A stretch of 49,540 bases of DNA. Origin: a virus. The position numbers and the translations under genes were made by a program. The first letter of the stretch is position 1. The number at the start of each line of letters is the position of its first letter. The DNA lies in the IMG/VR virus record IMGVR_UViG_3300021963_000189, positions 1 to 49,540 of that record; one strand, written 5' to 3'. This document shows positions 19,026 through 35,900 of the stretch, in pieces. Under the pieces are notes generated by a model. That model was not told the DNA's origin, did not search any database, and saw only the letters and a program-made list of their open reading frames with translations.

Positions 19026-20612
19026 TTATCCTACTTGACGGCCATCTCCTTTTGAATTTCTGCCTTCTCCAGATTTATCTGGGGCATTTGCAGACCTCTC
19101 GGAATCTCTAGATCTGGTTTTTCCAGCTTGGGCGGTTTGCTCTGCGGCATCCTGTGCCTTTAAGTCTACGACCTCATCTCCGCCTTCAATTGGAATCATG
19201 CCTTTTCTAATTCTAACTTCATTAGGAGTAATTACCTGCATACGTAAATATCTTTCATCAATTTTAGACTGAGTGTCTTCGTCTGTCAGGGTTAGCTCAT
19301 TAAATTTAATTAAAAGGGCGTCTGTTTTTTCTTCAATAATTTTATTTATTTTCTTTGCTAAATTGTTTTGGGCTGGTCCGCAGACTTGCTCTCTAAATGT
19401 TTTATCAGCATCTCTGGCAACGGCTAAATTAACTCCCGCTGGTGTTCCAACTTTATTAATAGGAACTCTATGGGCAAGCAATATTTCGTCTCTATTTGAA
19501 AGTCTGTATGTATTAAATGAACCTTCTTGAGTGCCAGCCTCGATAGGCTCCATTTTAAATTCTACCTTTGAGTCTGGTGAATCTGGTGGAAGAGGAATAT
19601 ATAGAGATCTGTGATTCTTTCCCTTTAATCCGACCTGGAAAAATTCAAGCAATTTTCTTTCTGATTCAGTTGAAAGCTTTGCTCCCTTTACCGTAATAAT
19701 ATAACGTGGAACTGCTTTATTTTCAAAGTAGTCTAGGTTATACTTTCCCGCAAATTCGTTCCCAGCCATAGCATTCTGAGCAGCAATAATATCTGGAATT
19801 CCATAATAATTATTTGTTGGCGTGTACTTCTTTAAATGAATAACTTCATTTGGGCGATCTTCTTGTCCAGCAATTGGATTCTCTGTTTCCATATCCCCAA
19901 AGTTTTTAAAGTAAACAGCCTTGCCGTAAAGTAATTGAATAAATCCGTCTCTTAATCTACGGACTCTCATTGTCTTTGCTGGAATGTGTCCAATGTATCC
20001 TATATTACCTGCTACGGTTCTACCAATTTCAATGTATCCGTTTCCAGTTGCCTCTAAGTCTACATAAGCTTTTATTAAAGTTTCTGTAAATGTCTCTTCT
20101 TCGTTTACTGACTCTAGCCAAGACTCTAGGTCCTGCTTAATTCTATTTAGCTTTTTTCTAGCTCTCTCTAATTGTTTTTCATCTGTAATTGTATCTAGTG
20201 CATCATTAGTTCTATTTGTTTCAACAAAGGAGTATCCGAGGCCAACTATATTTGATACCTTGGCATTTATTGCAGAATAGTTGTATGGAGATATTTCATA
20301 AATTTTAGAAAGATAGTCTAAGTTATACGGTGGCTCAATTAAATCAAACATAGCATAGCCAGTAATAGCTTGTGCTAGAAGATTTTGCTGTGTTCCAGTT
20401 CCATCTTGACCAGTAAATCTTTTTTGAATATCTCTTCCCATTTTGCGTCTAAAGGTAGAGCCTAGTCCATTAAGTTTTTTTAATTCTTCTCCCTCTAAAT
20501 TAAAAGGGTCAGTGTCTTCAACAATTGATTTAGAACTAAATTTTAGCCAGTCTGCTGCATTTGAAATACTAATAGATTCTTGATTTTCGTTTTCATCTTC
20601 AATAAATTGCAT
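19026..20612 (-). CDS. Portal protein
   Basis: This 528-residue protein forms the dodecameric ring through which DNA is packaged. It shows the usual layout of lambda/HK97-type portals. An N-terminal clip precursor is followed by DLIEPPYNLDYLSKIYEISP, and a wing beta region has GNGYIEIGRTVAGNIGYIGH. The conserved NNYYGIPDIIAAQNAMAGNE then leads into a long helix with FENKAVPRYIITVKGAKL. The crown-end C-terminus is polar and low-complexity (SRDSERSANAPDKSGEG). The gene begins at the stop of the 113-residue gene with a one-base overlap, and it precedes the protease as expected. Confidence 0.92.
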   Translation of the reverse strand: MQFIEDENENQESISISNAADWLKFSSKSIVEDTDPFNLEGEELKKLNGLGSTFRRKMGRDIQKRFTGQDGTGTQQNLLAQAITGYAMFDLIEPPYNLDYLSKIYEISPYNYSAINAKVSNIVGLGYSFVETNRTNDALDTITDEKQLERARKKLNRIKQDLESWLESVNEEETFTETLIKAYVDLEATGNGYIEIGRTVAGNIGYIGHIPAKTMRVRRLRDGFIQLLYGKAVYFKNFGDMETENPIAGQEDRPNEVIHLKKYTPTNNYYGIPDIIAAQNAMAGNEFAGKYNLDYFENKAVPRYIITVKGAKLSTESERKLLEFFQVGLKGKNHRSLYIPLPPDSPDSKVEFKMEPIEAGTQEGSFNTYRLSNRDEILLAHRVPINKVGTPAGVNLAVARDADKTFREQVCGPAQNNLAKKINKIIEEKTDALLIKFNELTLTDEDTQSKIDERYLRMQVITPNEVRIRKGMIPIEGGDEVVDLKAQDAAEQTAQAGKTRSRDSERSANAPDKSGEGRNSKGDGRQVG

Positions 20613-21014: not shown

Positions 21015-22763
21015 TTATACTGTTTGGATGACTATCCATTCATTATTATAATATCTTGTCTCTGCTTCTGTCAGGGTAACCGTCTGATCGTTTATTATTG
21101 AAGAAGGCTTTCCAGCATAGGCGTTATAGTGGTTAAGGCAGATTGCTGAGGTTATCTCTTTTTCATATATGGCTATTACGTTGTATAAGTTTGAGGGGGA
21201 TCCTGAAACATTATAATTCATTCTAATTGTTGTAGAAATTGGATTAGTAAATACTATTGTAATAAAGGCTGGCTCATTATTGGCCAAAACGGATGATATT
21301 GAGGTTGTTGCCGTTTTGTCTACCCCGTTAACATACCAAGCCTGAATGTTAGTTTTTGATATTGTCCCATTGGCAGCCCATTTAAACTCTGAAGAAGAGG
21401 ATCCACTAGCTGGTGCATACAGAAGTATGTTTGCTTGAGATATGTCTGCTGGAGTTAAGAAAAACTCTATTGATTTAATTTGTGATGATGTAGATATATC
21501 AAAGCCGCTGCCAGATTTTGCCCTTATTCCATTCATTTCATTTCTAGATAAAATTGGATAATTTAATGAGCCGAGGTAGTAGTCTGAGGTTGAAGATATT
21601 TTATCCCCGTAATTGTCTGCATATAAATCGTTGTTGTTGTAAAAGCTAATTGAAAAAAATGATAGTCTTGGGAAATGCTTAGAAGAATCTGGGGTTGACA
21701 TTGTGATTCTAAAGTATACCTGATTTGCTGTGCTAAAAGATGCCTTAGAGTATTGCGGAAGTGGTCTTCCGTTAATGCATGGCAAATAGTTTATACCATC
21801 TATACTGGACTCAACAGATATTCCTAAATTATTTCTCCATTCAATTTTAGATGTAATTAGTCCAATTTGTGATGGTAGTAAAAATGAGTCTTCAATAACA
21901 AATGTCTTTGCACCTGTAGATGGGTAAAATAATATTCCTCTTTTTACATTGTCATAATAAGTATTGTCGTCTACAAAGTCTTGCCATTGTTTGTTTATCG
22001 GATAAGAGTATTGAAATTGAGTTTTAATTTGTGCATCTGTTCCAGAAAATAAAACCCCTTCATCTGGGAAAACAACTTGAATTGCTGATGAAGAATTGTT
22101 TCCTTGTAAATAATGGCTTCTTACAGTATCTTCTTTTAACGCATATCTATATATAGCTGGGGAGTCTATTGTAAATGTATCTAAAGAAGATTGTGTTGGC
22201 CCAATGATAAATGATACGGCTGTGTTAGTAAATTTAAAATAGCTTAGTTCTGTTGATCCTACAAGAACTCCATCGACATACAGAGAAATTGATTTTGGAG
22301 AATAAATGCCGACAATGTGTAATGCTTTTTTTGAATATGTTACTGCATGCCTTACTTCATTAAGTTCTGCTTTAAATACAATGTCACCGTTTTCCCAATA
22401 CAAACCTGTTCCGCTATTGCTGTCTGCAAAAAGCCTGTTGCTGGAAATACTATTTAAAATGTCTATGCTTACCCAGGCTTCCATGCTAAAATCATTATCT
22501 GAAGAATATTTTGTTGCCATTCCAGGAGTTGTGGCTGCCCCATAATAATTGTTTGTTATTGGAAACGTTATGCTGGACGTACTAGTTATTTTTGTTCCAC
22601 ATCCTCCGCCTGGAATTAAAGGAAGAATGTTTCGTATTGGAGATCCAGAATATGTTCCATTGTTTCCACAACCAGAAGAATCGGCTGCAATAGTACCTGA
22701 AGATTCGTCAAGCTTCCAAAATCCTATTGGAGAATCTTTAATAACATTCAGGTAATAGGACAT
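21015..22763 (-). CDS. LamG/concanavalin-like lectin domain protein, probable appendage
   Basis: This is a 582-residue protein. Residues 1-220 match a LamG or pentraxin-type jelly roll: DSPIGFWKLDESSGTIAADS and CGNNGTYSGSP at the N-terminus, then DNDFSMEAWVSID and later KSISLYVDGVLVGS. Such domains bind sugars or other proteins. The remaining 360 residues are beta-rich, Ser/Thr-rich and have no obvious enzymatic motif. It lies between the oxygenase operon and the portal on the same strand, so it is probably a virion surface or fibre protein. Cell-surface glycans as ligand are inference. Confidence 0.78.
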   Translation of the reverse strand: MSYYLNVIKDSPIGFWKLDESSGTIAADSSGCGNNGTYSGSPIRNILPLIPGGGCGTKITSTSSITFPITNNYYGAATTPGMATKYSSDNDFSMEAWVSIDILNSISSNRLFADSNSGTGLYWENGDIVFKAELNEVRHAVTYSKKALHIVGIYSPKSISLYVDGVLVGSTELSYFKFTNTAVSFIIGPTQSSLDTFTIDSPAIYRYALKEDTVRSHYLQGNNSSSAIQVVFPDEGVLFSGTDAQIKTQFQYSYPINKQWQDFVDDNTYYDNVKRGILFYPSTGAKTFVIEDSFLLPSQIGLITSKIEWRNNLGISVESSIDGINYLPCINGRPLPQYSKASFSTANQVYFRITMSTPDSSKHFPRLSFFSISFYNNNDLYADNYGDKISSTSDYYLGSLNYPILSRNEMNGIRAKSGSGFDISTSSQIKSIEFFLTPADISQANILLYAPASGSSSSEFKWAANGTISKTNIQAWYVNGVDKTATTSISSVLANNEPAFITIVFTNPISTTIRMNYNVSGSPSNLYNVIAIYEKEITSAICLNHYNAYAGKPSSIINDQTVTLTEAETRYYNNEWIVIQTV

Positions 22764-22768
22764 GGGTT

Positions 22769-23443
22769 TTATGCCTCAGGTCGTTCAAAAAAGAATAGGG
22801 GGATGCATTCTTTTTGTCCACTTATAACTTCTAAAGAAGCATGTGTAAAATCTTCTGTTGAAGGAAAGAAAATAACACAACCAGCTTCTGGTTTAATTTT
22901 AATATCTTGTTGATCAAAGTATAGCTCTCCGCCTTCGTAATCATCGTTTAGATAAATGACTGCAGAAAGAATTGTTTTGTTATCGTTTGGGTGAAGATCA
23001 AAATGTCTTCCCATTGAAGCTTGCGGTCCGTATATTTTTATGTCAAAAACGTTGGGAAGATGTGGAGTGTCTCTTATATACAAATGCTTAAAATATTCTG
23101 CTGCTAAATTATCGGCACATTGCTTTACTTGTGAAATTAAACTTACTGCTTGTTTATGACCTCTAGAATCATTTTTATTTTCTTCATTGAAATTAAATAT
23201 TCCAGTCTTTTGTTTACCATAAATAAGATCTGCGCCATCATTAGAAGGCCAATCAACCCATTCGGATATTGGGTAATTTACTCCTGGATTTAAGTCTGCA
23301 GGGATATCTTCTAAATAGTTTAAGTCTATAGTGTTTAATTCTTCAATAAATTTTTCTGTATTAGACATAACTTTTTTAAATATAAATATTTTTTCTGACA
23401 GAATTGTAAGGTCTTCTGTTAAATCTTTTACGTTAATTATCAT
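22769..23443 (-). CDS. 2-oxoglutarate/Fe(II) oxygenase, prolyl hydroxylase-like (fifth of five)
   Basis: This 224-residue enzyme of the 2OG-Fe(II) family couples oxidation of a substrate C-H to decarboxylation of 2-oxoglutarate. The iron ligands are complete: His147 and Asp149 in GRHFDLHPND, and His201 in EDFTHASLEV. Lys211, ten residues after the distal His, would hold the 2-oxoglutarate carboxylate. The core also has the typical YLNDDYEGGELYF strand pair. The gene starts with an ATGA overlap on the previous oxygenase and is the last of the operon. Prolyl residues are the favourite substrate of close relatives; the actual substrate is unknown. Confidence 0.88.
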   Translation of the reverse strand: MIINVKDLTEDLTILSEKIFIFKKVMSNTEKFIEELNTIDLNYLEDIPADLNPGVNYPISEWVDWPSNDGADLIYGKQKTGIFNFNEENKNDSRGHKQAVSLISQVKQCADNLAAEYFKHLYIRDTPHLPNVFDIKIYGPQASMGRHFDLHPNDNKTILSAVIYLNDDYEGGELYFDQQDIKIKPEAGCVIFFPSTEDFTHASLEVISGQKECIPLFFFERPEA

Positions 23444-24189
23444 AGCTCGCCCTTTCCTTTATAAACTGGAGTATTACCAGATGATTTATCTTCTGCCCAT
23501 TGATCATACTGAACATCTTGTTCTTGTCTTGTTTGAGCCAATTCATCTGCCCAACGTTGTCTTTGCTCGTCGGTATACTCAATTCTTGCATCATCCCAAA
23601 AAGATCCTATGGTGTATCTTTCTCTCTTAACATTTTTAACCTGAGTAACTTCGTGCTCATTCCCGTGCCCACCTTTAAATATTGCTATGAGGCCAACCTT
23701 AGGCTTTATTGCTATATCATAGTGTTGGAAATTTAATATTCCGCCATCGAAGTCGTCATTTAAATATAGGAATCCAGCGTATCTACTTCTTTCAAATGCC
23801 GTTGGCTTACCGTCTTTTGAGTTGTCTGAATGAAAATCTGCAAAAGCTCCTTCGATCCACTTTTGAGCATGATAACTAATCTCAGCAAATTTGTGGCCAA
23901 AGATGTCTTCTCCTGCTTTTTTAAATCTAAACTTTAAACGATTAAAATAATCTTCTGGCAAACCGAACTCTGGCAATGTCGGATCTGAGTCCCAGAATCC
24001 CATAGCAAAAGAATCATAAAATGATATTTGATTCCATTTTAATCTGCCAGACGTAACTAGTGATTCTAAATATTTAATCATAGCTTCGGCCTCTTGTTCA
24101 GTAATAAAATTTTCAATTGTATAAACGTCGTCCTTCCATTCTTTAATGGTTGGGTATTTATCTAAAACTTCTTTACTAAGCGTTGTCAT
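23440..24189 (-). CDS. 2-oxoglutarate/Fe(II) oxygenase (fourth of five)
   Basis: This 249-residue member of the same superfamily carries iron ligands His120 and Asp122 in FADFHSDNSKDG and the distal His179 in GGHGNEHEVTQV. Arg191 is a likely 2-oxoglutarate ligand, in RERYTIGSFW. The strand pair reads FLYLNDDFDGGILNF. It differs from its neighbours by a longer loop after the HxD motif and by a 12- rather than 10-residue gap between His and the basic residue. It overlaps the third oxygenase by 14 bases and the fifth by 4. Divergence among the five enzymes argues for different substrates or sites, not recent duplication. Confidence 0.88.
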   Translation of the reverse strand: MTTLSKEVLDKYPTIKEWKDDVYTIENFITEQEAEAMIKYLESLVTSGRLKWNQISFYDSFAMGFWDSDPTLPEFGLPEDYFNRLKFRFKKAGEDIFGHKFAEISYHAQKWIEGAFADFHSDNSKDGKPTAFERSRYAGFLYLNDDFDGGILNFQHYDIAIKPKVGLIAIFKGGHGNEHEVTQVKNVKRERYTIGSFWDDARIEYTDEQRQRWADELAQTRQEQDVQYDQWAEDKSSGNTPVYKGKGEL

Positions 24190-24901
24190 TTTCTTTTAAC
24201 TTTCTAATTGTCCAAAACCATGGGGATGTATATCTAGTTCCAGCTGTAACTTTATCTACTCCGTGAATATAATTTTTGTCTCCTGGGAAGAAATAAACTG
24301 CACGTCTTTTAGGTTTAAATGCAATTTTTTGTCTTGGGAAATGTAGCTCTCCTCCTTCAAAATCTTCATTTAAATAGAATATAGTTCCTAGGTCATACCA
24401 AGGAAAATCATTTTCTGTTCCTGCGTCTGGGCCTTCATGCAGTTCTTTATCTGCATGTGGAAACTGGAATGTTCCAACTGGCCATCTTACTATAGCTGGA
24501 TTTGTTGGCTCAGCTTCTAATACGTTAAAAAACTTTTCAATCTCTGGCTTAAGTCTTCCAATGATATTTCTTAGCATATCGACTGCGACTGGGCTTGCTT
24601 TCATTAAAGTATTTAATGTGGCAACCCTATTTTCCCATGGTCGATGATCATAAATAATTGTTCCGTTTTCATTAAAATGAGACTCTGTAACATCCCAAAT
24701 TTTATTGTTACGTGCAAAGTCTTCTAGAAAATCGCATTCCTCTTCAGTAAGAAAGTTTTCTATTTCGCCAATCATTTCTGGGCCTTCTCCAAAATAGCCT
24801 GACGGAGTGATTGACTGTCTGGCAGTACGAACATTCTTACCGTCTGCTAATGCATCATAATTTTGAATATTATCTTCGCTAATTGTACTTTCAAATGCCA
24901 T
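24176..24901 (-). CDS. 2-oxoglutarate/Fe(II) oxygenase (third of five)
   Basis: This 241-residue enzyme has iron ligands His149 and Asp151 in TFQFPHADKELHEG, distal His213 in NYIHGVDKVT and Arg223 for 2-oxoglutarate in AGTRYTSPWFW. The double-strand motif is FYLNEDFEGGELHFPR. The first 50 residues are an extension ending in a helix with FLTEEECDFLEDFARN, common in prolyl 4-hydroxylase-like proteins. It lies 9 bases after the DUF6065-like gene, so it is in the same operon. The presence of Arg rather than Lys at the carboxylate site separates it from the first two enzymes. Confidence 0.88.
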   Translation of the reverse strand: MAFESTISEDNIQNYDALADGKNVRTARQSITPSGYFGEGPEMIGEIENFLTEEECDFLEDFARNNKIWDVTESHFNENGTIIYDHRPWENRVATLNTLMKASPVAVDMLRNIIGRLKPEIEKFFNVLEAEPTNPAIVRWPVGTFQFPHADKELHEGPDAGTENDFPWYDLGTIFYLNEDFEGGELHFPRQKIAFKPKRRAVYFFPGDKNYIHGVDKVTAGTRYTSPWFWTIRKLKENDNA

Positions 24902-24909
24902 TTTTCCCC

Positions 24910-25650
24910 CTATTCATAATTCTTTTTTTCCCAAGTTTTTTGTTTATAGATTCCACCATAAGCAACCCTATATTTATCTGTTGTCGCAACGTGCCTGTCA
25001 TACATTTCTTGATTTGTATAATAAATATGTTCTGATGTCCAGTCTTCCCTTTTTATTGGAATAATCTGTGCATAAGGAGTTCCTTTTGGTATTAAGCCAG
25101 AAAAGCCTTCTTTTAGAAAGAATGGCATAAGTCCTGGCATAGTATACTTATCGCTATCTATTATACCAGCTACAGTTAAAAATGGTAAATCAAATCTATT
25201 TAATGGACTTGTTACTAGTGCGCTATATCCTTTAGGTAATTCAATTCCCCAATTTGGCCACCAATGAAAATGCTTAGCGTGGTAACCGTGTGGATTTTCA
25301 AATTGAGGCATTGAGTGTCTTGCGTCACAAAAATCTTTAAACTCTTCATCAATTTTTACAAATGGCTCTCCGTTGTATTGGACAAACATTATGTCTGTAG
25401 GGGTTCTAAGTGTATATCCTACACTAAAGATATCTAATAGGGCGGGGCAAGACTTAAATCCTAAAGATCTTTCTTCTGGCTCTTGATGGGGATATTGAGC
25501 TGGGATGTATTCTCCATCTTCAGCAAGCCAATACTTGGTTGCCTTACTCCACCATTCTGGCATAAACTTTTTAATAGCATCTGGGATGACTTCTTTATAT
25601 TGCGCTTCGTTATTATAAGGCCTAGCAGAACCAAATTTAATTTTTGGCAT
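24910..25650 (-). CDS. DUF6065-like protein (second copy), in oxygenase operon
   Basis: Starting at the ATG in MPKIKFGSARPYNN (AAGGGG upstream), the product has about 246 residues; an earlier in-frame start is less likely. It has the DUF6065-type pattern: a segment ending TPTDIMFVQYNGEPFVK, then WPNWGIELPKGYSALVTSPL, then a late GLIPKGTPYAQIIPIKREDW. These look like a jelly-roll or cupin-like fold without an HxD iron motif. It overlaps its upstream partner by 14 bases. The function of the family is unknown to me. Its place among five oxygenases suggests a linked role, perhaps substrate recognition or another modification. Confidence 0.7.
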   Translation of the reverse strand: MPKIKFGSARPYNNEAQYKEVIPDAIKKFMPEWWSKATKYWLAEDGEYIPAQYPHQEPEERSLGFKSCPALLDIFSVGYTLRTPTDIMFVQYNGEPFVKIDEEFKDFCDARHSMPQFENPHGYHAKHFHWWPNWGIELPKGYSALVTSPLNRFDLPFLTVAGIIDSDKYTMPGLMPFFLKEGFSGLIPKGTPYAQIIPIKREDWTSEHIYYTNQEMYDRHVATTDKYRVAYGGIYKQKTWEKKNYE

Positions 25651-26365
25651 TTTTCCCCTTTTCAACAACCTTTAACTTTAAATTTTTTACTTCATGTTTA
25701 CCTAAATTATTTCCTAAATAATCGGTTGTGTCTCTATAAAAATTAGTCCACTTCTTTTCTTTTGCTAAATTAGAAACAAATTTTATATGATCAGTTTCAT
25801 TATACTTGTTTGCAAATTCTGATAATGGCATGTCTTGAATTGGCTTTATTTCAATTTCTGAATTTTGTAGTTCTCCTAATGATATAGGAAGAATAGATAT
25901 TATTGGGTATCCCGCTGGGATAGTCATTGGTGTATATGGCTTTGTAATTCTCCAAGCGACTGGAAATTCTGCTGTATACCATGAAGTGCTAATTGCTGTT
26001 GTAAATGGCTGAGCTCCATCAAAAAAATGATTAGGTGCTGGCATTCCAACCAAGCTTACATTTTCTTCAGTTTTAAAAGTTATACCAGTTTTAAAGCTAA
26101 TGGTTGCATTTGCTCTTTCTGTATAGCAATACTTTTCACCCTTTAATATCTTAACATGATCTGGAGAAGAGTCAGACTTCCCATCCCATACAAAAACTAT
26201 ATCCTCTGGAAAAGATAAGCTCCACCCCATAGAGTTTGTAAGGGTAACTGGAAAACATGTATAGGCATGTCTTTCTGCTGTTTGCTCCATCCAATCCCTT
26301 TTAACGCTTAGCGGCTCAAGGATAGCTGAGTCATCATGCTTTTTATATGCAGTTATCTTATGCAT
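25637..26365 (-). CDS. DUF6065-like protein (first copy), in oxygenase operon
   Basis: I take the ATG at 26365 (MHKITAYKKHDDSAILEP), which overlaps the previous stop by 8 bases, rather than the longer frame that runs far into the upstream gene. This gives about 242 residues. Recognisable parts are CFPVTLTNSMGWSLSFPEDI with VFVWDGK, ENVSLVGMPAPNHFFDGAQP, and TIPAGYPIISILPISLGEL. This matches my memory of DUF6065. It is distantly similar to the next gene in its C-terminal jelly-roll part, so the two look like old paralogues. No metal motif is visible. Confidence 0.7.
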   Translation of the reverse strand: MHKITAYKKHDDSAILEPLSVKRDWMEQTAERHAYTCFPVTLTNSMGWSLSFPEDIVFVWDGKSDSSPDHVKILKGEKYCYTERANATISFKTGITFKTEENVSLVGMPAPNHFFDGAQPFTTAISTSWYTAEFPVAWRITKPYTPMTIPAGYPIISILPISLGELQNSEIEIKPIQDMPLSEFANKYNETDHIKFVSNLAKEKKWTNFYRDTTDYLGNNLGKHEVKNLKLKVVEKGKNAKN

Positions 26366-27056
26366 AGCCTTCTGTATATCTCTTTTCAATCTCTCTGTAG
26401 TCTGGCGTGTGTGGTGCTTCCAAATAATCAAGCATGGTAACGATTGAATATTTTGTTCCACTTGTTACTGGCATTGCTGAATGAGAGTAGATATAAGAAG
26501 ATGGGAATAAATAAAGGTCTCCCGCCTTAGGCTTAATCTTTAAATTAAACTTGTCAAAAAATAGCTCTCCGCCCTCATAATCATCATTTATGTATCCTAC
26601 TGATGAAAGAACGCAGATATAAGAATATCCGTGATCTGAATGAACTTGGAAGTGTTGTTGTGGGCCATACTTAACAAAGTTAAAGGACTCCCAATAATTA
26701 AGTGGGGCTAGTCCAAAAGCATTTCTATACTCTTCTACTGGCTTTAGCTGAGCAGTGTATGAGTCTTCCCAAATTTTTTCTAGCTCAATTTCAGCTTCTT
26801 GTCTATCCTCTTTGCTTACATACTCCATTGATAGCATTAAGCTGTCATCGCTATTTCTTTTAATTTTAAAATCATGAGCATCTCTATATTTAAGGTCTGT
26901 ATGTGCATAGCCAGTTTGAGACTGATTCCACTTATACTTGCCTTCGCTTTTGCTTAAAGAATTTTCTAATCTATTTACTAGATCCATCTCTTTAGTAAAT
27001 ACATCTCGATAAACAACAATTCCATAATGTAAATATTCAGCATTTGCAGAAAACAT
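26358..27056 (-). CDS. 2-oxoglutarate/Fe(II) oxygenase (second of five)
   Basis: This 232-residue protein is closely related to the first oxygenase of the operon: both share the KYRDAHDF/EYRDCYDF segment, KYGP(Q/G)Q before the iron motif, and TKYS(I/F)VTMLDY at the end. Iron ligands are His139 and Asp141 in FQVHSDHGYSY and His192 in IYSHSAMPV. Lys202 is the likely 2-oxoglutarate ligand. The strand pair reads GYINDDYEGGELFFDK. Start and previous stop overlap by one base. The two enzymes probably arose by duplication and then diverged. Confidence 0.9.
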   Translation of the reverse strand: MFSANAEYLHYGIVVYRDVFTKEMDLVNRLENSLSKSEGKYKWNQSQTGYAHTDLKYRDAHDFKIKRNSDDSLMLSMEYVSKEDRQEAEIELEKIWEDSYTAQLKPVEEYRNAFGLAPLNYWESFNFVKYGPQQHFQVHSDHGYSYICVLSSVGYINDDYEGGELFFDKFNLKIKPKAGDLYLFPSSYIYSHSAMPVTSGTKYSIVTMLDYLEAPHTPDYREIEKRYTEGYA

Positions 27057-27670
27057 TACTTAATACCATACTTTCTATCTATATACTCTTCATACTCTGT
27101 AGTATGAGTATCATCATTATAATCTAGCATTGTTACAAATGAATACTTGGTCCCCGACCTAACTGGCATTGCTACATGGGAAAACAAATACGTGGACGGA
27201 AATATATATAAATCTCCAGCCTTTGGTTTTTCAAAAATCTTTAATTTTGGAAAAGCTAATTCTCCCCCAAGATAGTCGTCGTTTGGATAAGATACCAGTG
27301 AGACTGTAGATACATAAGACCACCCATGATCTGCATGCTCTTTAAAATATTGTCCTGGCCCATATTTAACAACATTAGTCCATTCCCAAAAGCCCATTTT
27401 TATTTGATAGTAATCACAATATGCGTCTACGTATGGTTTTTGAGATTCGTATACATGCTTATAGATTTTATGCTCTTTGCCTAAATCGCTTAGCTTAAAA
27501 TCATAACAGTCTCTATATTCTGTGTCTGTTTCTTCTAAGCCTACCTGGGCTTTGGTCCAAGAGCACTCGCCTTTTGATACAGATTTTTCAATTTTATTTA
27601 CTATATCAAATGACTTGTCAAAAACATTCTCAAATTTCCATATTCCTGGGAATATTTCTATTTTATTCAT
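27056..27670 (-). CDS. 2-oxoglutarate/Fe(II) oxygenase (first of five)
   Basis: This 204-residue enzyme opens the operon. Iron ligands are His112 and Asp114 in YFKEHADHGWSY and His165 in YLFSHVAMPV. Lys175 is the expected 2-oxoglutarate ligand, and the core strand pair is YPNDDYLGGELAF. There is no Shine-Dalgarno sequence. A promoter TTGACT-17-TAAAGT ends 6 bases before the ATG, so the mRNA should begin at or next to the start codon. The gene begins only 24 bases after the stop of the FFxPPx/Hint gene. Prolines of that neighbour are the obvious candidate substrate, as inference. Confidence 0.9.
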   Translation of the reverse strand: MNKIEIFPGIWKFENVFDKSFDIVNKIEKSVSKGECSWTKAQVGLEETDTEYRDCYDFKLSDLGKEHKIYKHVYESQKPYVDAYCDYYQIKMGFWEWTNVVKYGPGQYFKEHADHGWSYVSTVSLVSYPNDDYLGGELAFPKLKIFEKPKAGDLYIFPSTYLFSHVAMPVRSGTKYSFVTMLDYNDDTHTTEYEEYIDRKYGIK

Positions 27671-27676
27671 GTTACT

Positions 27677-27705
27677 ACTTTAGCATTTAATAATTAGTTA
27701 GTCAA
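27677..27705 (-). promoter_or_regulatory. Promoter of the oxygenase operon, leaderless type
   Basis: On the minus strand TTGACT, 17 bases, TAAAGT, 6 bases, then ATG 27670. The -35 hexamer coincides with the Leu-Thr codons at the very end of the FFxPPx/Hint gene. The same spacing (TTGACT-17-TAAACT-6-ATG) occurs at 46866, which strengthens both. Confidence 0.6.
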
Positions 27706-29376
27706 CATATGGATTGGGCATCCATTATATGCAAGCATGCCTCCAGCAATAATCATACCGTATGGCTCTCTATAGAAAAGAATTGTGTTTGTTTCTTCTT
27801 CTATGTTTGTTAGGCTAGTTATTGGTACTATTTGAGTAGAGTCGTTTGAATAAATAACTAATGAGTCTCCAACTAATAGGTCTTCAACAGTAACAATAAC
27901 ATATTTATTGTCTCTATAAATTAAAACATCTTCTTTTACTGAAAATCTTTTATCTTGATCATTATTTATTATAGTAGTTTTTTTATGAACTTCGCTTAAA
28001 ATGTTAGTAACTTTTGACTCTAATAGTTTATAATTTTTTAATTCGTCAACAGACCATGAGTTTACTATTTCTGAGCATTCGGCTGTAACTACTCCAAAGT
28101 TGCAGTTGTCTGCTCCGTATGTTATTTCATCAAATGTTAGTGTAGATAGTATATCTCCAACTAAAATATCTTTTGCTTTTTTATACCCGTCTTTTGTAAG
28201 TACTGGAGTATCTTCTTGAATGCAAAATCTAGGTGGAGAGAAGAATCTAGGTGGACTAAAGAACCCTGGAGGGCCGAAGAATCTTGGCGGAGAGAAAAAG
28301 CCTGGAGGGCCGAAGAATCCTGGAGGGCCGAAGAATCTAGGTGGTGAGAAGAAGTTTGGTGGTCCGAAGAAGCTTGGTGGGCCAAAGAAGAACGGAGGAC
28401 CAAAGAATACTGGCGGTCCGAAGAATGTTGGTGGTCCAAAGAAGAACGGAGGACCAAAGAATGCTGGAGGCGAGAAAAATCCTGGTGGTGAAAAGAATCT
28501 AGGTGGTGAGAAAAAGCTTGGTGGGCCAAAGAATGTTGGTGGGCCAAAGAAGAACGGAGGGCCAAAGAATGCTGGTGGGCTAAAGAACTGTGGTGGTGAA
28601 AAGAATCGAGGTGGTGAGAAAAAGCTTGGTGGTGAAAAGAATGATGGTGGGCTAAAGAACTGTGGTGGGCTAAAGAACTGTGGTGGTGCAAAGAATCCTG
28701 GTGGGGCAAAGAAGGCTGGTGGGCCAAAGAATCTTGGAGGGCTAAAAAAAGTAGTAACTGTAGCTGTAGAGGCAGGAACTGAAGTTCCGTTAGCATTAAT
28801 AGCATATATGTTATAAGCCTGAGAAGTTCCTCCAACTTCTGAAATTGATAAAGGGGACACGGCATTTAAATAAACTGGTCCTGGTGATCCATCTCCTGCT
28901 GGCGGTTGAGCTGAAGGATCGTTAGAAATTACAGTATAACTTGAAATTTCTTTACCGCCGTCATTTGCTGGTGCTGTCCATGAGACAACGTCCGTATCTG
29001 CAACTGTTGAAGTAGCACTTGGAGTTCTTGGAATTCCTGGAACTGTTGTAATTAATTTAGATACTGAAGCAGCAGAAGGAATTGATGTTCCATTATTATT
29101 AATAGCAACTGCTGTAAATGTATAGGACACATTAGTTTGAAGTCCTTGTACTAAAATTGGGGAAGATGACCCTTCTCCTGTAAAACTTCCTGGGCTTGAA
29201 GTAACAATAAAACTTGTTGGGGTCGTTCCTACTGGGTTTACTGTAAAAGCAACTGATGCGGCGCCATTGTTGAATAGTCTATCTTGTCCAACATCTGTTG
29301 CTACGAGATTTAGGGGTGGCAATGGCTTTTCAAAATCTCCAGCCGCTGCCGATCTTCTACCAGTTTTTTTACCCAT
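27694..29376 (-). CDS. Fibronectin-III / FFxPPx-repeat / Hint-domain protein
   Basis: This 560-residue protein has three regions. Residues about 18-208 are two fibronectin-III-like domains (SYTFTAVAINNNGTSIPSA and AYNIYAINANGTSVPAST mark their last strands). Residues 210-383 are 29 uninterrupted hexapeptides FFxPPx, where the third residue is Ser, Gly or Ala. Residues 385-560 are a Hint (hedgehog/intein) domain starting with Cys385: CIQEDTPVLTKDGYKKAKDI, a second LLVGDSLVIY strand, and an end with AGGMLAYNGCP. It is encoded with fibre genes and has a TAGGAG site. A virion appendage role is likely; the repeat may be a stiff stalk. Self-cleavage is possible but unproven. Confidence 0.85.
   Translation of the reverse strand: MGKKTGRRSAAAGDFEKPLPPLNLVATDVGQDRLFNNGAASVAFTVNPVGTTPTSFIVTSSPGSFTGEGSSSPILVQGLQTNVSYTFTAVAINNNGTSIPSAASVSKLITTVPGIPRTPSATSTVADTDVVSWTAPANDGGKEISSYTVISNDPSAQPPAGDGSPGPVYLNAVSPLSISEVGGTSQAYNIYAINANGTSVPASTATVTTFFSPPRFFGPPAFFAPPGFFAPPQFFSPPQFFSPPSFFSPPSFFSPPRFFSPPQFFSPPAFFGPPFFFGPPTFFGPPSFFSPPRFFSPPGFFSPPAFFGPPFFFGPPTFFGPPVFFGPPFFFGPPSFFGPPNFFSPPRFFGPPGFFGPPGFFSPPRFFGPPGFFSPPRFFSPPRFCIQEDTPVLTKDGYKKAKDILVGDILSTLTFDEITYGADNCNFGVVTAECSEIVNSWSVDELKNYKLLESKVTNILSEVHKKTTIINNDQDKRFSVKEDVLIYRDNKYVIVTVEDLLVGDSLVIYSNDSTQIVPITSLTNIEEETNTILFYREPYGMIIAGGMLAYNGCPIHMLTN
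28228..28749 (-). repeat. 29 tandem 18-base units encoding FFxPPx
   Basis: The array has an exact 18-base period with no indels over 522 bases. The invariant positions are Phe-Phe and Pro-Pro; variable third positions are Ser (15), Gly (12) and Ala (2), and the sixth varies widely. A larger block (FFSPPA FFGPPF FFGPPT) occurs twice, showing block duplication. Synonymous differences between units show it is not a very recent expansion. On the plus strand it gives a GGxKNxGG frame, which I regard as a shadow. Confidence 0.95.
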
Positions 29377-29385
29377 TTAATTCTC

Positions 29386-29889
29386 CTACGTAGTCAAGTC
29401 CCCAAATACTAACCAAGTATTTGAATCACGCTTTATAATAGTTGCAATAGACCACTGTGATCTAATTTTTAATCCTGGGGTGTAATTTATAATAACACCA
29501 AATGCTGGAACTATAGTTGTCTGGCCGCTTCCAGCTTGCAAAATATCTATAGTTGTTCCAATTGGAAAAGTTAATGCAGTTGTGTCTGGCGGAATTGTTA
29601 AGGTGTTTGCTGTGTTTAAATGCATTTCAATCATGGTATCTCTTTCGTCACCATTTGAAAGAGTATAGTTAAGAAATTTTCTATTAATTTTTGTTAATGA
29701 AGGAACGCCCTGCTTGGATTGAATTCCATCTATAAAACTTACCGAGCCGCTAGAAGTATCTAGTGACCCAGTAAGCTTTACATCTCCACCTAATGTTACT
29801 TTACCATTAAAACCAACTTCATCTGAGACAGATAATGTCTTAACGGCTAATTCAGCATTATAAGGTATTTTAACTTTTTGTATAGACAT
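29386..29889 (-). CDS. Small fibre-type virion protein
   Basis: This 167-residue protein has an N-terminal beta-repeat region (VGFNGKVTLGGDVKLTGSLD) of the sort found in fibre shafts. The C-terminal domain has TTALTFPIGTTIDILQAGSG and ends TPGLKIRSQWSIATIIKR plus LVFGDLTT, a module I associate with tips or anchors of phage fibres. It lies 21 bases after the 1007-residue gene and 9 bases before the FFxPPx gene, all on one strand. It probably forms part of the same appendage complex, which is inference from context. Confidence 0.72.
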   Translation of the reverse strand: MSIQKVKIPYNAELAVKTLSVSDEVGFNGKVTLGGDVKLTGSLDTSSGSVSFIDGIQSKQGVPSLTKINRKFLNYTLSNGDERDTMIEMHLNTANTLTIPPDTTALTFPIGTTIDILQAGSGQTTIVPAFGVIINYTPGLKIRSQWSIATIIKRDSNTWLVFGDLTT

Positions 29890-29910: not shown

Positions 29911-32900
29911 TTACGCTGATGCTTCTGTCCATGATAGACGGGAGAACACGTTTGCAGTTGATGTACCAAGATTTGTTACAGAAATTGTAACTACGTCTGG
30001 TCCGTCTGGATAAATTCCAGCGCTTGTAACGGTTCCTCCTCCACCAAGAATTGAGTTACCTAGGTCACGCAATCCTGAAAGGTCAACCGCGGTTGTTCCT
30101 GATGTAAAGAATCCACCAGTAACTTCTCCACCGCTTATAGTTGTGGATCCACCTGAGTAATCCGCAATTTGTGCAAGTGATGAGTTAACAAGTGTTGTTA
30201 CGTTACCAATTGCATTTGTCCATGTTGTTGCACTTGAAGGCAATCCGTTAAGTGTTGCTGTTACAAGTAGTGTTGGGGTTCCTGTAGCTGTTGTTGCAGT
30301 AACATCTAGCGCTTTTAGGGCCAGCTGCATTCTGTTAACAACTTCACGGGCACCAAAGGATGCTGCTACACCGTTATCTGCTGATGGGGCTGAACGAATT
30401 GACATAAGTGCTCTTGTTTGGCCTGATGCAACTGAAGTTGAGTTTCTCTGTCCATAAGTAAAGATAAGAGATTTTTCTTCATCATATCTACCATCCATAA
30501 TTACAGAGGTTCCCCAGTGTGAAATTGTTGGTGCAAATGTTGGGAATGCTAGTTCTACACCGACTGGCGAGAAGGCATCTAATGTAAATTGTAAAGGAAC
30601 ATCTGAACCCATAGGTGGGAAGCTAACGGTTGGATTTCCTGTTACTGTTGGCTGACTTAGAACAAAAGCTCCAGTTGCAGTATTAATTGATACCAAGAAG
30701 GTCTCGTCTGGTAGTTCTGAGCTTATACATCTCATTCCAGGCTGTAGCAATGCGCTAATTTGTCCGTCTGAAATTGTTCCAGTATTTTGGCCAGCACCCA
30801 AACTGAGTGTAACTCCGCTGTATCCAGCTTTTGCTCTAGTTAGTCCAGTAAAAGATGTTGCTGTTTTACCAGAATAGTTTACAAATTCATAGTTAGTAGT
30901 ATTTTTAATACATAGGGTTCCGCTAGGTGGGAATCCAGTTGTACTTAGAACTGGAATTGATGTAGAGCTTGTTAAAATGTTATCTGTTGTTGTTGTAAAT
31001 GGAGGAGTTGTAGTTGCAGAATATCTTCCTGGAAGGTTACCTGATCTCATGTAAGCTTCAGTATTTACGTTGTTATTTTGCATCTTGTGTAAGTAAATAA
31101 TATTACCCTTAGGGCCTCTTACTCCCCAACGGATAAATCCTGCTCCATACCAGGTGTAGTCAATATAAAACATCTGCATCTTTGAAAGGTCCATTGTATA
31201 TTGTGAAGGTCCTGTTCCGTCTGCCTTGTCCATATTAAATTGTGATTGAGGAATTTTTGTATCAACTGTCTTTGAATAAATACAAAGTGAAGCTGTTGCT
31301 CCTCTATACGCTGGAGAAATTTTAAGTGATGTATCACTAATGATGTTAGAGACCTTATAGGACTGTCCTCTAATTACAATTGAATCTCCTGGAATAAGTT
31401 GCTTGTTAAAGTATGTTGGAAACTCTGCAGCAGACTGTGTTACTGTGTCTGAGCCAAAGGTTACGTTTACTTTACCAGACAATTGTGTTGTTGAGTTTCT
31501 TCTTACTGCATATATAGTTGTTCCGTCATACTCAAAGAACAATCCGTTTTGATTATCAAACATTCCTAGTCTATTTTGTGCTCCGTACCAGGCTTCAATT
31601 GAAGCAAATACGTTTCCTGTTGCAATAGTGCTAGTTGGTACTGATAGTGCTGTGTATGCGAATTTGTTATATCCTAATATGTTAGTGATAGTAAATGTTC
31701 CGTTATATGCTGATTGATCGCAACCACCAATTTTTACAACTGTTCCTGGTTGAATGCAATGCTTTTCTTTTGTAACAACTGTTACTGTTGTTCCTGAAGA
31801 TGTAATTGAGTCAATACCTGCGTATGGCTTTAGGATTGTTCCTGAAGACATTTGAAGTCCCTTACCTGATTGGTAGCGGAAATAACGACGTGTTTGACGA
31901 TAAGCTTCTCCGTAGTTTGATCCAGCTTGTGTACCAAAAATAACTCCACCATCTGCTGGTCTGTGTAGGAAGAATCCTTGTGGTCTAACATAAATTTCTG
32001 TTGGTCCACCTAATGTTCCAGTAGGAATAAGGTTTGCAAAGTATGCAAATCTTGTAGGAGAAATAATCTGTGCCACAACAAAGTTACCGTTTGGAGCATT
32101 TGTAGTTGCTGTCATGCCCTTAACAACAATTTCATTACCAAGTGCTAGTCCGTGATCTACTGTTGTTGTAACATCAATTCTATATTGAGAGTATGAAACT
32201 GTTGGAATAAATCCAATTCTTGCTCCAGTAAATGGAGTAGCTATATAAATAGATGTTTTATTTGGGTCTAAAATGTTTGTGATATTTGGGCTAAAGTTTT
32301 TGGAAGATGCGCTGTATGTAAAGGATGAAGTTCCTCCTCCAGTTTCAACAACGAAGTTTCCATTTGCTGATGAAAGATATGTATCTTGAACAGTAATTGG
32401 AGTTCCATTTGCTGGACCAACTCCAGATGTTAGAGCTATTGTTACTGTTGCGCTACCAGCTGGATATGTAATAGAGCCAATATTTATAATTGGGTTTGCG
32501 GCAGGATAAGCAAAAGGCTTGTTGTTGTAAAGGGATAAGTTTTCCCACTTAGTAACCTGTGTACCATATTCAAAATCTGTATCAATAAGTGCTTGTGGTT
32601 GTGTTACTCTAAATTTATTTGTTGGATCCAGCATTGATTCTGTTGGAGTAAATGTCTCTTCATAATCATCAATTGTTATTGAGATTTTATCTGTTGAAAG
32701 CATTGATGCTGTATTATAATTAAATACGATGGTTGTAGTTTCTACACCATTTTGCTCCAGTGAAACATAACTTGTTGCATTTAAGCTTGGATCTGAGAAG
32801 TTATAGATAACCTGATTTTGTGTTGTGTTGGTAATAAGAAGCAATCTCTCTCTTGGAATTGCCTTTGGAATTACTAATGTCTTTGCTGTTGGAGTAAATG

Positions 32901-32934
32901 TATAGTGTGTCTCCAGAATTACTTTTCTTGCCAT
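29911..32934 (-). CDS. Large modular appendage/fibre protein (1007 residues)
   Basis: This protein begins MARKVILETHYTFTPTAKTL, with VIPKAIPRERLLLITNTTQN, a beginning I know from virion structural proteins of aquatic phages. Residues about 145-450 contain three related beta modules, each ending in a G(N/T)Fx(V/I)...FxY pattern (ANGNFVVETGGG, PNGNFVVAQIIS, YNGTFTITNILG). The middle is Trp/Tyr-rich (QMFYIDYTWYGAGFIRWGVR). The C-terminus is Gly/Thr-rich and ends RLSWTEASA. A TTAGGAG site precedes the ATG. No enzyme motif is visible. Its role is probably a large structural appendage. Confidence 0.8.
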   Translation of the reverse strand: MARKVILETHYTFTPTAKTLVIPKAIPRERLLLITNTTQNQVIYNFSDPSLNATSYVSLEQNGVETTTIVFNYNTASMLSTDKISITIDDYEETFTPTESMLDPTNKFRVTQPQALIDTDFEYGTQVTKWENLSLYNNKPFAYPAANPIINIGSITYPAGSATVTIALTSGVGPANGTPITVQDTYLSSANGNFVVETGGGTSSFTYSASSKNFSPNITNILDPNKTSIYIATPFTGARIGFIPTVSYSQYRIDVTTTVDHGLALGNEIVVKGMTATTNAPNGNFVVAQIISPTRFAYFANLIPTGTLGGPTEIYVRPQGFFLHRPADGGVIFGTQAGSNYGEAYRQTRRYFRYQSGKGLQMSSGTILKPYAGIDSITSSGTTVTVVTKEKHCIQPGTVVKIGGCDQSAYNGTFTITNILGYNKFAYTALSVPTSTIATGNVFASIEAWYGAQNRLGMFDNQNGLFFEYDGTTIYAVRRNSTTQLSGKVNVTFGSDTVTQSAAEFPTYFNKQLIPGDSIVIRGQSYKVSNIISDTSLKISPAYRGATASLCIYSKTVDTKIPQSQFNMDKADGTGPSQYTMDLSKMQMFYIDYTWYGAGFIRWGVRGPKGNIIYLHKMQNNNVNTEAYMRSGNLPGRYSATTTPPFTTTTDNILTSSTSIPVLSTTGFPPSGTLCIKNTTNYEFVNYSGKTATSFTGLTRAKAGYSGVTLSLGAGQNTGTISDGQISALLQPGMRCISSELPDETFLVSINTATGAFVLSQPTVTGNPTVSFPPMGSDVPLQFTLDAFSPVGVELAFPTFAPTISHWGTSVIMDGRYDEEKSLIFTYGQRNSTSVASGQTRALMSIRSAPSADNGVAASFGAREVVNRMQLALKALDVTATTATGTPTLLVTATLNGLPSSATTWTNAIGNVTTLVNSSLAQIADYSGGSTTISGGEVTGGFFTSGTTAVDLSGLRDLGNSILGGGGTVTSAGIYPDGPDVVTISVTNLGTSTANVFSRLSWTEASA

Positions 32935-32938
32935 GTTC

Positions 32939-35900
32939 TTACGCTCCTAATAATATGTCTATTGGTCTAAATGGATACTTCGATTTTGGAACAGAGTTAT
33001 AAGTTGGTCCTGGCATAACCCTGCCGTCAAATGTAGATCCTTTTGGTACTGGTTCGCCAAAGTTCAAGTATCCATCGGAATCTATAAAGAACCCATCCTG
33101 AGCAATCGGGGATAACATGTGGTTATCTTGATTTCCTAGTATTTGAATTATACCATTAATGGATATCAAAAGTCGAAGTGGGTTTGTTATATTTACCTTT
33201 GTATTATTGAATTTAGGCAGGAACCGAGAATCGGCTCCATTAAATTGGCTAGTTAAATTGTCTAAAGGAATAATATCTTGTGCCCCTGCATCAACATATG
33301 CTTTTGTTACTGCATCTGTTGAATTTACTGGAGTTGGTACTGTGACCGTTCCCGTAAATGTTGGGGAGGCAAGATTTGCCTTTAGTCCCAGGGAAGTAGC
33401 CAACCCTGAAATCTTTGATTGAGCGATAGCGGCTGATGCGCTTATTTGAGTATCTGTAATTGTTGCATTAGCTATTTTACCTGCCGTCACAGATAAATCT
33501 GCAAGCATTGCGTTGGTAATTGTGCTGTTTGGAAGAATTACTGTTCCTGTAAATGTTGGGGAAGCCAGTGGGGCTTTTAATCCAATTGCAGTTGTTACTG
33601 TTGTTGAGAAGTTAACGTCATTGCCTAAGGCTGTTGCTAGTTCATTTAATGTATCTAATGCCGTTGGTGCTGAGTTAATAAGTGCTGTAACTTCTCCACG
33701 AACATAGGCAGTTGTTGCAATTTGTGTTGTATTAGTTCCAACAGTTGCTGTTGGTGCTAATGGAGTTCCAGTCAATGTAGGGCTTGCTAAAGGTGCATAT
33801 GTACTTGATGCTGTTGCAGTTGTTAGATATCCAGATATTAATGCTCCAGATGGAATTGTTACCGTTCCAGTAAATGTTGGAGAAGCTAAATTAGATTTTA
33901 AATTTAATGCTGTTTGAGTATCAGCAGAAACTGGTTTATTAGCATCTGATGTATTGTCTACGTTAGACAAACCAACCATAGTCTTGGTAATTCCAGAAAC
34001 TGTGCCAGTAAAAGTAGGTGAAGCAAGGTTTGCCTTTAAATCAAATGCTGTCTGTTGAGCGGACGACACTGGTTTATCTGTATCGGCTGTATTGTCTACT
34101 TCTTCAAGGCCAACCATTACCTTATCAATTCCGCTTACAGTGCCTGTAAATGTTGGTGAGGCAAGTGGGGCCTTAAGATCAATTTGTCCCTGAATTGCTG
34201 AAGTTACTCCATCAACATATCCTAATTCTGTTGAAGTTATTGTTCCAATTGATGTTGTAGCAGGAAGAACAACTGTTCCAGTAAATGTTGGGCTTGCTAG
34301 GGGAGACTTAAGCGCAAGAGCTGTGTTGACTGTAGACGTTAAGGCTAAGGCTGAAGTGTCTGCAATTCCGTGAACTGATGTAGTTGCAGAATTGTGATTT
34401 GATGTAGATGTGGCAATTGCTTGATTTCTAGCAATTACTTCTTGTGCGACTATATAATCTGCGTGTCCTTCGGCTGCTGTTTCTGCAGCTGCTGCTGCTC
34501 CATAGACGTCATATGTATTGGCAGTAACAGAAATTGCTCCTGTTGAGTCTGTATAGGTTAATCCTGCACCTAATGACAATCCTATTGCATCTTGAGCTCT
34601 TTCATCTGTAAAATATTTGTTTGAAGTTCCTTCAACTAAATTATCTGTTGTAGAATCTGCAACTCCGTTTTCTGCGCTAATAACAAGTCCATTTTTATCG
34701 CCAGTAATTGTAATATTAGTTTTAGTAGCACCAGTTAAAAGGCTAGCTGCGAATGCTTTAGTGGCAAGTTCTGCGGTATCTGCAATTCCATGAACTGATG
34801 TGGTGTCTGTTTCATGTGTACTAATTTGTGTAGTTACAGCAGTTTGTAAATCTGTAATTTCTCCATCAATATAGTTTGTTAAGGCGGTTGTTGCAGATCC
34901 TAAATTAGATAGTGTTGCTAGTAAGCTTGTATCTGCAATACCGTGTACAGATGTTGAGTCAGAGCTGTGTGTTGAAACTGCTGCATCAGCATATTGCTGC
35001 GTTGTTGTATTCAAAACTCCTAGAGCTGAAGCCAAATCAGTTGTGTAAACTAAATTAGCGGTATTTGTAATTCCATGAACGCTTGTTGTAGCGTTATTGT
35101 GTGCAATTAAAGACTGTGTGACATATGGGGTAGAAGCAATTTCGCTAGATGTGGCTCCGTTGTCTTCTGAGAAAACCCACTTGTTTAATGTTTCATTCCA
35201 TAAAATTGAAGCGTCTAAGGATGTTCCTCTTTTAACTGTAATTCCAGTATAGGTTCCTTCTGTTGGTGCGCCAGTTGCTTCAGAGTTTAATGTCAATCCC
35301 TTAAGAGATAAAACGTTACCATAAACATCAAATTTAACTGGTCCGCTTAGTTCTCCTAGATCTGCTAATAATATATACTCGCCTAAATTGTTTTCAAGCT
35401 GTGTCTGTGTTACTGTTATGTAAGGAAGAGCGGACCAAGTTGTTATTCCATCGCCCATTTTCATTTGAAGAGTATCTACTTCAAATCCTATTTCTCCGTC
35501 TCTGAGTACCTGATTTGCAGTAAATAACGCAGCTGTTTGTCTTGTTACTTTACCTATATTAGTTTTGTTTATTCCAAAAAGAGAGTCGCTAGATAAAACT
35601 GGGGTCTGATTAATCATATATGATTTTGCAGAGTTTATATCAAAGTTTTCTGATGAGGTCCATGCATTTGTTGTATCTGACCACTGTAATGTTTTATCAG
35701 TTGTGCCCTTTAATGTAAATCCTCCGCCATTGGCAGTTGCATTTGTAGGGGTTGCTGTATCTCCAATAATAACATTTTTGTCTTCTATAACTAAATTTGT
35801 AGCGTTAAGATTTGTTGTAGTTCCATTAACTGTTAAATCACCAGATACTATTAAATTAACTGCTGTGGCTGTTCCAGTAAGCGCTGGTGAGGCAAGTGGT

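Follow-up and report, generated by a model that had tools for sequence, protein, structure and literature searches.

Gene Content of the Locus

The window considered here, i.e., the whole stretch of 49,540 nucleotides of the viral record IMGVR_UViG_3300021963_000189 (IMG/VR), contains a gene for a protein with a hexameric FFxPPx repeat, which is accompanied by five genes for 2-oxoglutarate- and Fe(II)-dependent (2OG-Fe(II)) oxygenases. Transcription runs from the repeat gene through two oxygenase genes, a DUF6065 gene and a DUF6065-like gene to three further oxygenase genes, all on the same strand. Many freshwater phages have an FFxPPx repeat protein together with a fixed set of prolyl-hydroxylase-like enzymes beside a tail-fibre gene, which suggests a chemical finishing of the host-contact protein by the phage itself. 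The genes and domains concerned, in amino acids (aa) where lengths are given and with one listed open reading frame (ORF) shortened, are the following:

27694-29376, minus strand: FFxPPx repeat protein, 560 aa, with fn3-like N-terminal part, 29 repeats and Hint-like C-terminal domain; presumed substrate
28228-28749, minus strand: 29 FFxPPx units (aa 210-383)
27694-28227, minus strand: Hint / bacterial-intein-like C-terminal domain, 177 aa; window copy with Cys1 but without intact block-B His and final His-Asn
27056-27670, minus strand: 2OG-Fe(II) oxygenase, group 3, adjoining the repeat gene; PF13640; HxD...H...K
26358-27056, minus strand: 2OG-Fe(II) oxygenase, group 9, lineage-specific second enzyme; PF13640; HxD...H...K
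25637-26365, minus strand: DUF6065 protein (PF19541), predicted dUTPase-like fold; ORF listed as 25637-26461, internal start probable at ~26365
24910-25668, minus strand: second DUF6065-type protein (phrog_7084), PHROG match
24176-24901, minus strand: 2OG-Fe(II) oxygenase, group 0; PF13640; HxD...H...R; predicted fold nearest to viral and algal prolyl 4-hydroxylases
23440-24189, minus strand: 2OG-Fe(II) oxygenase, group 1; PF13640; HxD...H...R; profile nearest to prolyl 3-hydroxylase 1
22769-23443, minus strand: 2OG-Fe(II) oxygenase, group 2, last in the array; PF13640; HxD...H...K

A preliminary description of this DNA had reported five separate 2OG-Fe(II) oxygenases with intact active sites next to 29 repeat units with 58 prolines, and each of these statements holds: all five genes match PF13640 above the curated cut-off, with over 27 bits each, the His-x-Asp motif, the distal His and a basic 2OG residue (Lys or Arg) are present in five of five enzymes, and an exact recount gives 58 Pro in the 174 aa of the repeat. 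Both DUF6065-type genes, located between the second and third oxygenase, were absent from that description, as was the Hint-like C-terminus of the repeat protein, whose N-terminus carries an fn3 domain by Pfam profile match.

Among 1547 units from 112 distinct proteins the F-F and P-P pairs are invariant while their codons vary (TTC/TTT; CCA/CCT/CCG), and therefore the repeat is selected as a protein and is no chance DNA repeat. At position 3, 94% of the units have A, S or G; at position 6 G is the commonest residue (about 42%), followed by S, R, A and L. Two further ORFs, one on the plus strand at 28220-28816 and one of 234 aa at 28161-28865, are shadows of the repeat in other reading frames. 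The 29 Pro-Pro pairs at 28228-28749, some of which are followed by Gly, should render translation dependent on elongation factor P. The proteins that carry the repeat differ: some have fn3 and a Hint tail, others have fn3 and end 2-20 residues past the repeat, one has an S74-chaperone domain (locus L050), and others are long tail-type proteins. No fusion of FFxPPx to an oxygenase or to DUF6065 was found among the fetched loci, and of 11 cellular genome contigs with the motif none had an oxygenase in the stretch examined.

Linkage of the Repeat to Oxygenase Genes

Homology searches revealed relatives of the repeat protein in 32 viral contigs, and in every one of these the gene is followed immediately by one or more oxygenases. 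Independently of homology, viral contigs were scanned with a nucleotide pattern that matches three FFxPPx units in a row, which yielded at least 120 stretches. For counting, repeat genes were dereplicated and required to have at least 2.2 kb of downstream sequence, and collagen-like genes found in the same way served as controls. Among the matches listed, an oxygenase lies within 2 kb downstream of 53 of 60 FFxPPx genes but of only 5 of 69 collagen-like controls (Fisher p ~ 2e-22), and DUF6065 is found within 2.7 kb as well for 51/60 and 1/69, respectively. Co-occurrence among relatives, which the preliminary description had put forward as a check, is thus strongly positive. An analogy to collagen is rejected, since the repeat is not Gly-X-Y and oxygenases are rarely near collagen-like phage genes; the window repeat protein has neither a Gly-X-Y triple-helix repeat nor a Pfam collagen match.

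Of the seven dereplicated exceptions, six are FFxPPx proteins whose records contain oxygenases at another place, which suggests that the enzymes act in trans on FFxPPx. Likewise, records with second FFxPPx proteins on other carriers also hold oxygenases elsewhere, as expected for action in trans. At 27 loci where the array appeared to be missing or truncated, PF13640 genes were found in the whole record in 24, the three misses being records of 8.5, 9.3 and 13.5 kb.

The comparison of sister phages was based on 80 loci with a portal 78-97% identical to that of the window, of which those with enough upstream sequence were counted, and fewer than two oxygenases were taken as no array. At least two oxygenases are present in 10 of 10 portal-matched sisters with FFxPPx, while fewer than two are present in 16 of 18 without it; the other two (L288, L349) start at the array or within it. 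Sister phages acquire or lose the cassette as a whole. A homologue of the window portal was found in 25 of the 38 FFxPPx records tested, but several records of at least 70 kb are without it, and therefore the module occurs on other backbones too. Common descent as the sole cause of the linkage is rejected, because the linkage is also seen on other backbones and on second carriers, although most modules belong to one clade.

Oxygenases of the Array

A tree of 180 enzymes from 37 modules resolves four orthologous groups in the fixed order 3-0-1-2, with group 3 beside the repeat gene and lineage-specific extra paralogues interspersed. The iron triad is intact in 178/180 of these enzymes, all 178 of which have K or R at the 2OG position, and the choice between K and R differs between the orthologous groups. 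Group 0 is present in 34 of the 37 sampled modules. Since distinct orthologues are conserved, which is not copy-number noise, each oxygenase should have its own job, and we infer that these jobs concern different atoms or positions.

The nearest neighbours of the enzymes in profile and fold comparisons with solved structures are prolyl hydroxylases, namely Bacillus anthracis prolyl 4-hydroxylase (P4H), vCPH of chlorella virus PBCV-1, algal P4H, P3H1 and PHD2. For the predicted structure of the group-0 enzyme (predicted local distance difference test score, pLDDT, 88) the top Foldseek match is PBCV-1 vCPH (E 5e-12), with the algal P4H also among the closest. By profile and modeled fold, the window oxygenases most resemble prolyl hydroxylases, and peptidyl-proline hydroxylation itself is predicted.

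The Fibre Slot

The module occupies a variable slot that is bordered by the following genes:

21015-22763, minus strand: LamG/concanavalin-like protein, portal-side border of the variable slot, conserved in module-free sisters
29386-29889, minus strand: short fibre-type protein, 167 aa, ending in a TPGLK(L/I)R...W...GDL domain; PHROG tail/virion matches
29911-32934, minus strand: 1007-aa protein of the upstream fibre operon, no Pfam match
32939-37531, minus strand: 1530-aa fibre protein with Mtd_N domains (PF18454, E 5.9e-21)

In nearly all of 20 sampled modules the conserved TPGLKLR...W...GDL domain forms the end of the gene that precedes the FFxPPx gene; in the window this is a separate gene. 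Because this fibre-type domain precedes the FFxPPx protein and an Mtd_N gene lies further upstream, a position of the FFxPPx protein in the virion is likely. In module-free sisters the slot is filled by Gly-rich fibre-type proteins, halogenases, a carbamoyltransferase or glycosyltransferases.

The window portal (19026-20612) is 57% identical to those of Streptomyces phages of the Stanwilliamsviridae, on the basis of which the host is probably an actinomycete. On the far side of the fibre slot a ribonucleotide reductase is encoded at 40471-42405, as in phage Starbow.

DUF6065 Proteins

The predicted structure of the DUF6065 protein (pLDDT 94.9) has only dUTPases as top fold matches, with E ~1e-4 and a target-normalised template modeling score of ~0.6-0.7. 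The invariant or near-invariant columns W25, C37, G47, P53, D55, N112, P154 and P160 of the alignment appear unlike dUTPase motifs. For this reason our guess is that DUF6065 acts non-catalytically, and the proteins would probably serve as a partner of the enzymes, e.g., as a scaffold or recruiting subunit. Bacterial gene neighborhoods, considered as a clue to the function of DUF6065, were a dead end at 10 alphaproteobacterial loci, and a literature search, which reached few subscription journals, found no paper on DUF6065.

Relatives of phrog_7084, the family of the second DUF6065-type protein (24910-25668), were found in 49 records of HF1/HF2-type haloarchaeal viruses, and within the phage collection tblastn detected them only in such haloviruses. 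In two sister phages the same fibre slot holds two Trp_halogenase genes flanking a DUF6065 relative (L302:3427-7265, L306:2516-6352; assigned to PF04820 in L306, with homologues in L302), which is possibly a protein-halogenation module. The DUF6065 relative of a further sister adjoins a carbamoyltransferase in the same slot (L309:91-2254), and that of another adjoins a glycosyltransferase, which is followed by a collagen-like gene (L358:1365-4468).

Hint-like Domain and Additional Tailoring Enzymes

Profile comparison relates the C-terminal domain of the repeat protein to the bacterial intein-like domain 2lwy (E 2.5e-7) and to inteins, and 16 of 27 family members match Intein_splicing, whereas the window copy alone gives a weak match below the cut-off (Hint_2, E 0.016). 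The Cys1 nucleophile is present in the window copy; the sequences aligned with it had been selected for Cys, and Cys1 is missing from some other modules. The block-B TxxH and the C-terminal His-Asn are not intact in the window copy, where SVKED and AYNGC stand in the alignment, while several relatives retain TKEHP and VHN or THN. Self-processing of the window copy is doubtful because neither the block-B His nor the terminal His-Asn is kept. The Hint domain, or the S74 domain in another module, may represent a removable or folding-related tail.

Some related modules encode further enzymes. In one sub-lineage the gene next after the repeat gene encodes a sulfotransferase (Sulfotransfer_2, PF03567). 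With an uncharacterised gene of ~200 aa it makes up a conserved pair that separates the FFxPPx gene from the oxygenases (L052:818-2087, L098:1021-2293 and six further loci). In L050 a PF11397 N-acetylglucosamine (GlcNAc)-transferase gene begins 29 bp after the repeat gene and stands with a luciferase-like monooxygenase directly after the FFxPPx protein with the S74 chaperone tail (6319-9602). PF11397 is the GlcNAc-transferase family linked to Skp1 hydroxyproline. Sulfotransferases and GlcNAc-transferases are both able to use hydroxyl acceptors. In Toxoplasma, a glycan is built on the hydroxyproline of Skp1 (PMC11570480). On another FFxPPx backbone the set is longer and includes several oxygenases, an AurF-like diiron oxygenase and, as judged by eye, a methyltransferase (L065:3109-11906).

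Proposed Modification and Alternatives

Taken together, gene linkage and predicted folds make it quite probable that the fibre slot holds a dedicated cassette of several enzymes which hydroxylate, in trans, the FFxPPx repeats of a fibre-associated protein. That the modification occurs, which residues carry it, what DUF6065 contributes and what the phage gains are all points that we infer. The FFxPPx protein would be associated with the fibre, probably at or near the tip, and the core prolyl-hydroxylase-like oxygenases (groups 3, 0, 1 and 2), together with at least one extra paralogue, would hydroxylate the repeat during or after synthesis, each at its own atom or position. The likeliest targets would be both prolines of every FF[S/A/G]PPx unit, and the product could be a hydroxyl-rich, rigid, sticky or otherwise altered host-contact surface, which in some relatives may serve as an anchor for sulfate or GlcNAc. 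The preliminary description had the phage hydroxylating its own appendage stalk, perhaps to stiffen or disguise it. That the oxygenases serve the FFxPPx protein is strongly supported by the linkage, co-inheritance, fixed orthologues, likeness to prolyl hydroxylases and adjoining hydroxyl-using enzymes; a fibre-tip or adhesin role, however, fits at least as well as a stalk, given that a fibre gene with a conserved C-terminal domain precedes the repeat gene and that Gly-rich fibre proteins fill the slot in module-free sisters.

Several observations weigh against hydroxylation of the repeat by this cassette. The linkage counts are not all independent, because most modules belong to one phage clade (25/38 records). 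The four to eight enzymes exceed the apparent need of two prolines, so that some may act elsewhere, and members of PF13640 are also active on other residues and on small molecules. DUF6065 is present in sister phages without oxygenases as well, and at the 10 alphaproteobacterial loci no oxygenase or halogenase lies within ~6 kb of it. Finally, no cultured phage with the module was found when the phage collection was compared by tblastn with the window repeat protein, two further repeat proteins, two oxygenases and the pair of DUF6065 genes, although a short repeat could evade the low-complexity filter of BLAST.

It is improbable, though more likely than the other alternatives, that FFxPPx is modified mainly in ways other than proline hydroxylation, i.e., at Phe, position 3 or position 6, or by oxidative cross-links, which would give a product similar to a ribosomally synthesised and post-translationally modified peptide (RiPP). 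Such a modification would accommodate the excess of enzymes over proline positions, the invariance of FF, which equals that of PP, the variation of K or R at the 2OG site between orthologous groups, and the further oxidases of some modules (AurF-like, luciferase-like). However, the closest sequence and fold relatives are overwhelmingly prolyl hydroxylases, and the glycosyltransferase family found after one repeat gene is one described for hydroxyproline.

To a marginally greater degree, it is improbable that the oxygenases act elsewhere, on a host surface molecule, a metabolite or another fibre protein, with FFxPPx being an unmodified structural repeat, since oxygenases stay linked to the motif itself on different carrier proteins and different backbones, records with second FFxPPx proteins also have oxygenases, and both parts are missing from module-free sisters. 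On the other hand, 2OG-Fe(II) oxygenases are common in aquatic phages lacking such repeats, with several of them in 14 of 16 T4-like cyanophages (PMC3037559), and the collagen-like controls occasionally have oxygenases nearby.

Mere hitchhiking, in which the fibre slot is a recombination hot spot for accessory blocks whose parts travel jointly without working jointly, would suit the other blocks in the slot of the sisters (halogenases, carbamoyltransferase, glycosyltransferase) and the single clade that holds most modules, but is very unlikely, as FFxPPx, oxygenases and DUF6065 recur beside short FFxPPx proteins without the window portal (L061, 105.6-kb record; L067, 98.2-kb record), group-0 orthologues are kept in such modules too (inverted in L065), and FFxPPx on other carriers still coincides with oxygenases.

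Relation to Known Systems

The nearest precedent for hydroxylation of the repeat by virus-encoded enzymes is PBCV-1, whose vCPH (PDB 5c5t/5c5u) is likewise a viral P4H and the top fold match of the group-0 enzyme. Eriksson is said to have reported in 1999 that the PBCV-1 enzyme is active on proline-containing viral peptides. It is a single enzyme of a eukaryotic algal virus, in contrast to the multi-enzyme phage array of the window, and we know of no FFxPPx, multi-enzyme array, DUF6065 or Hint partner in PBCV-1. Viral prolyl hydroxylation is thus known from this precedent, while the multi-enzyme phage form is apparently new, at least to us; a literature search, which reached few subscription journals, found no paper on hydroxylated phage repeat proteins.

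With the hydroxylation of collagen and extensin (collagen P4H, P3H1, algal P4H) the module shares the enzyme fold and profile, a proline-rich repeat substrate and PP-G in about 40% of the FFxPPx units, but it differs in lacking Gly-X-Y, in its bacterial host and in that a single operon encodes at least four single-domain enzymes as separate proteins. Skp1, on which hydroxylation by a prolyl hydroxylase anchors GlcNAc added by Gnt1, resembles the arrangement in L050, where the PF11397 gene stands beside the FFxPPx gene; it is modified at a single site and is a eukaryotic ubiquitin-ligase subunit, and the window itself is without such a transferase. The oxygenases of T4-like cyanophages (phrog_61) belong to the same superfamily and PHROG as those of the window and often occur several per genome, with proposed roles in DNA repair or 2OG metabolism (PMC3037559), but among the matches listed they lie beside other genes such as primase-helicase and form no repeat-linked array. 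RiPP tailoring clusters likewise have a gene for a repetitive substrate with the dedicated tailoring enzymes encoded after it, whereas the presumed substrate in the window is a large fibre-operon protein and no small peptide, and no leader peptide was recognised in it.

Implications

Aquatic phage genomes often encode several 2OG-Fe(II) oxygenases for which there is no explanation, and according to one survey the viral use of prolyl 4-hydroxylase "remains cryptic" (PMC9301287). The FFxPPx repeat is a concrete, repetitive and easily synthesised substrate candidate tied to defined enzymes, which makes the question open to direct tests with short peptides. If hydroxylation of the repeat is true, it would provide a phage protein-hydroxylation route for host-contact proteins, with FFxPPx as a portable tag modified in trans. 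More tentatively, phages could mature their host-contact proteins via exchangeable cassettes in one fibre slot, comprising the FFxPPx oxygenase array and, in sisters, the halogenases, carbamoyltransferase or glycosyltransferases, several of which would share a dUTPase-fold DUF6065 partner. On this reading, the FFxPPx module would be the first case of a phage assembly line whose four or more dedicated oxygenases write a dense hydroxyl pattern on a repeat adhesin. For the VirX1 halogenase of cyanophage Syn10 a review gives no natural substrate (PMC8407142), and the shared DUF6065 partner may hint at the substrates of phage halogenases.

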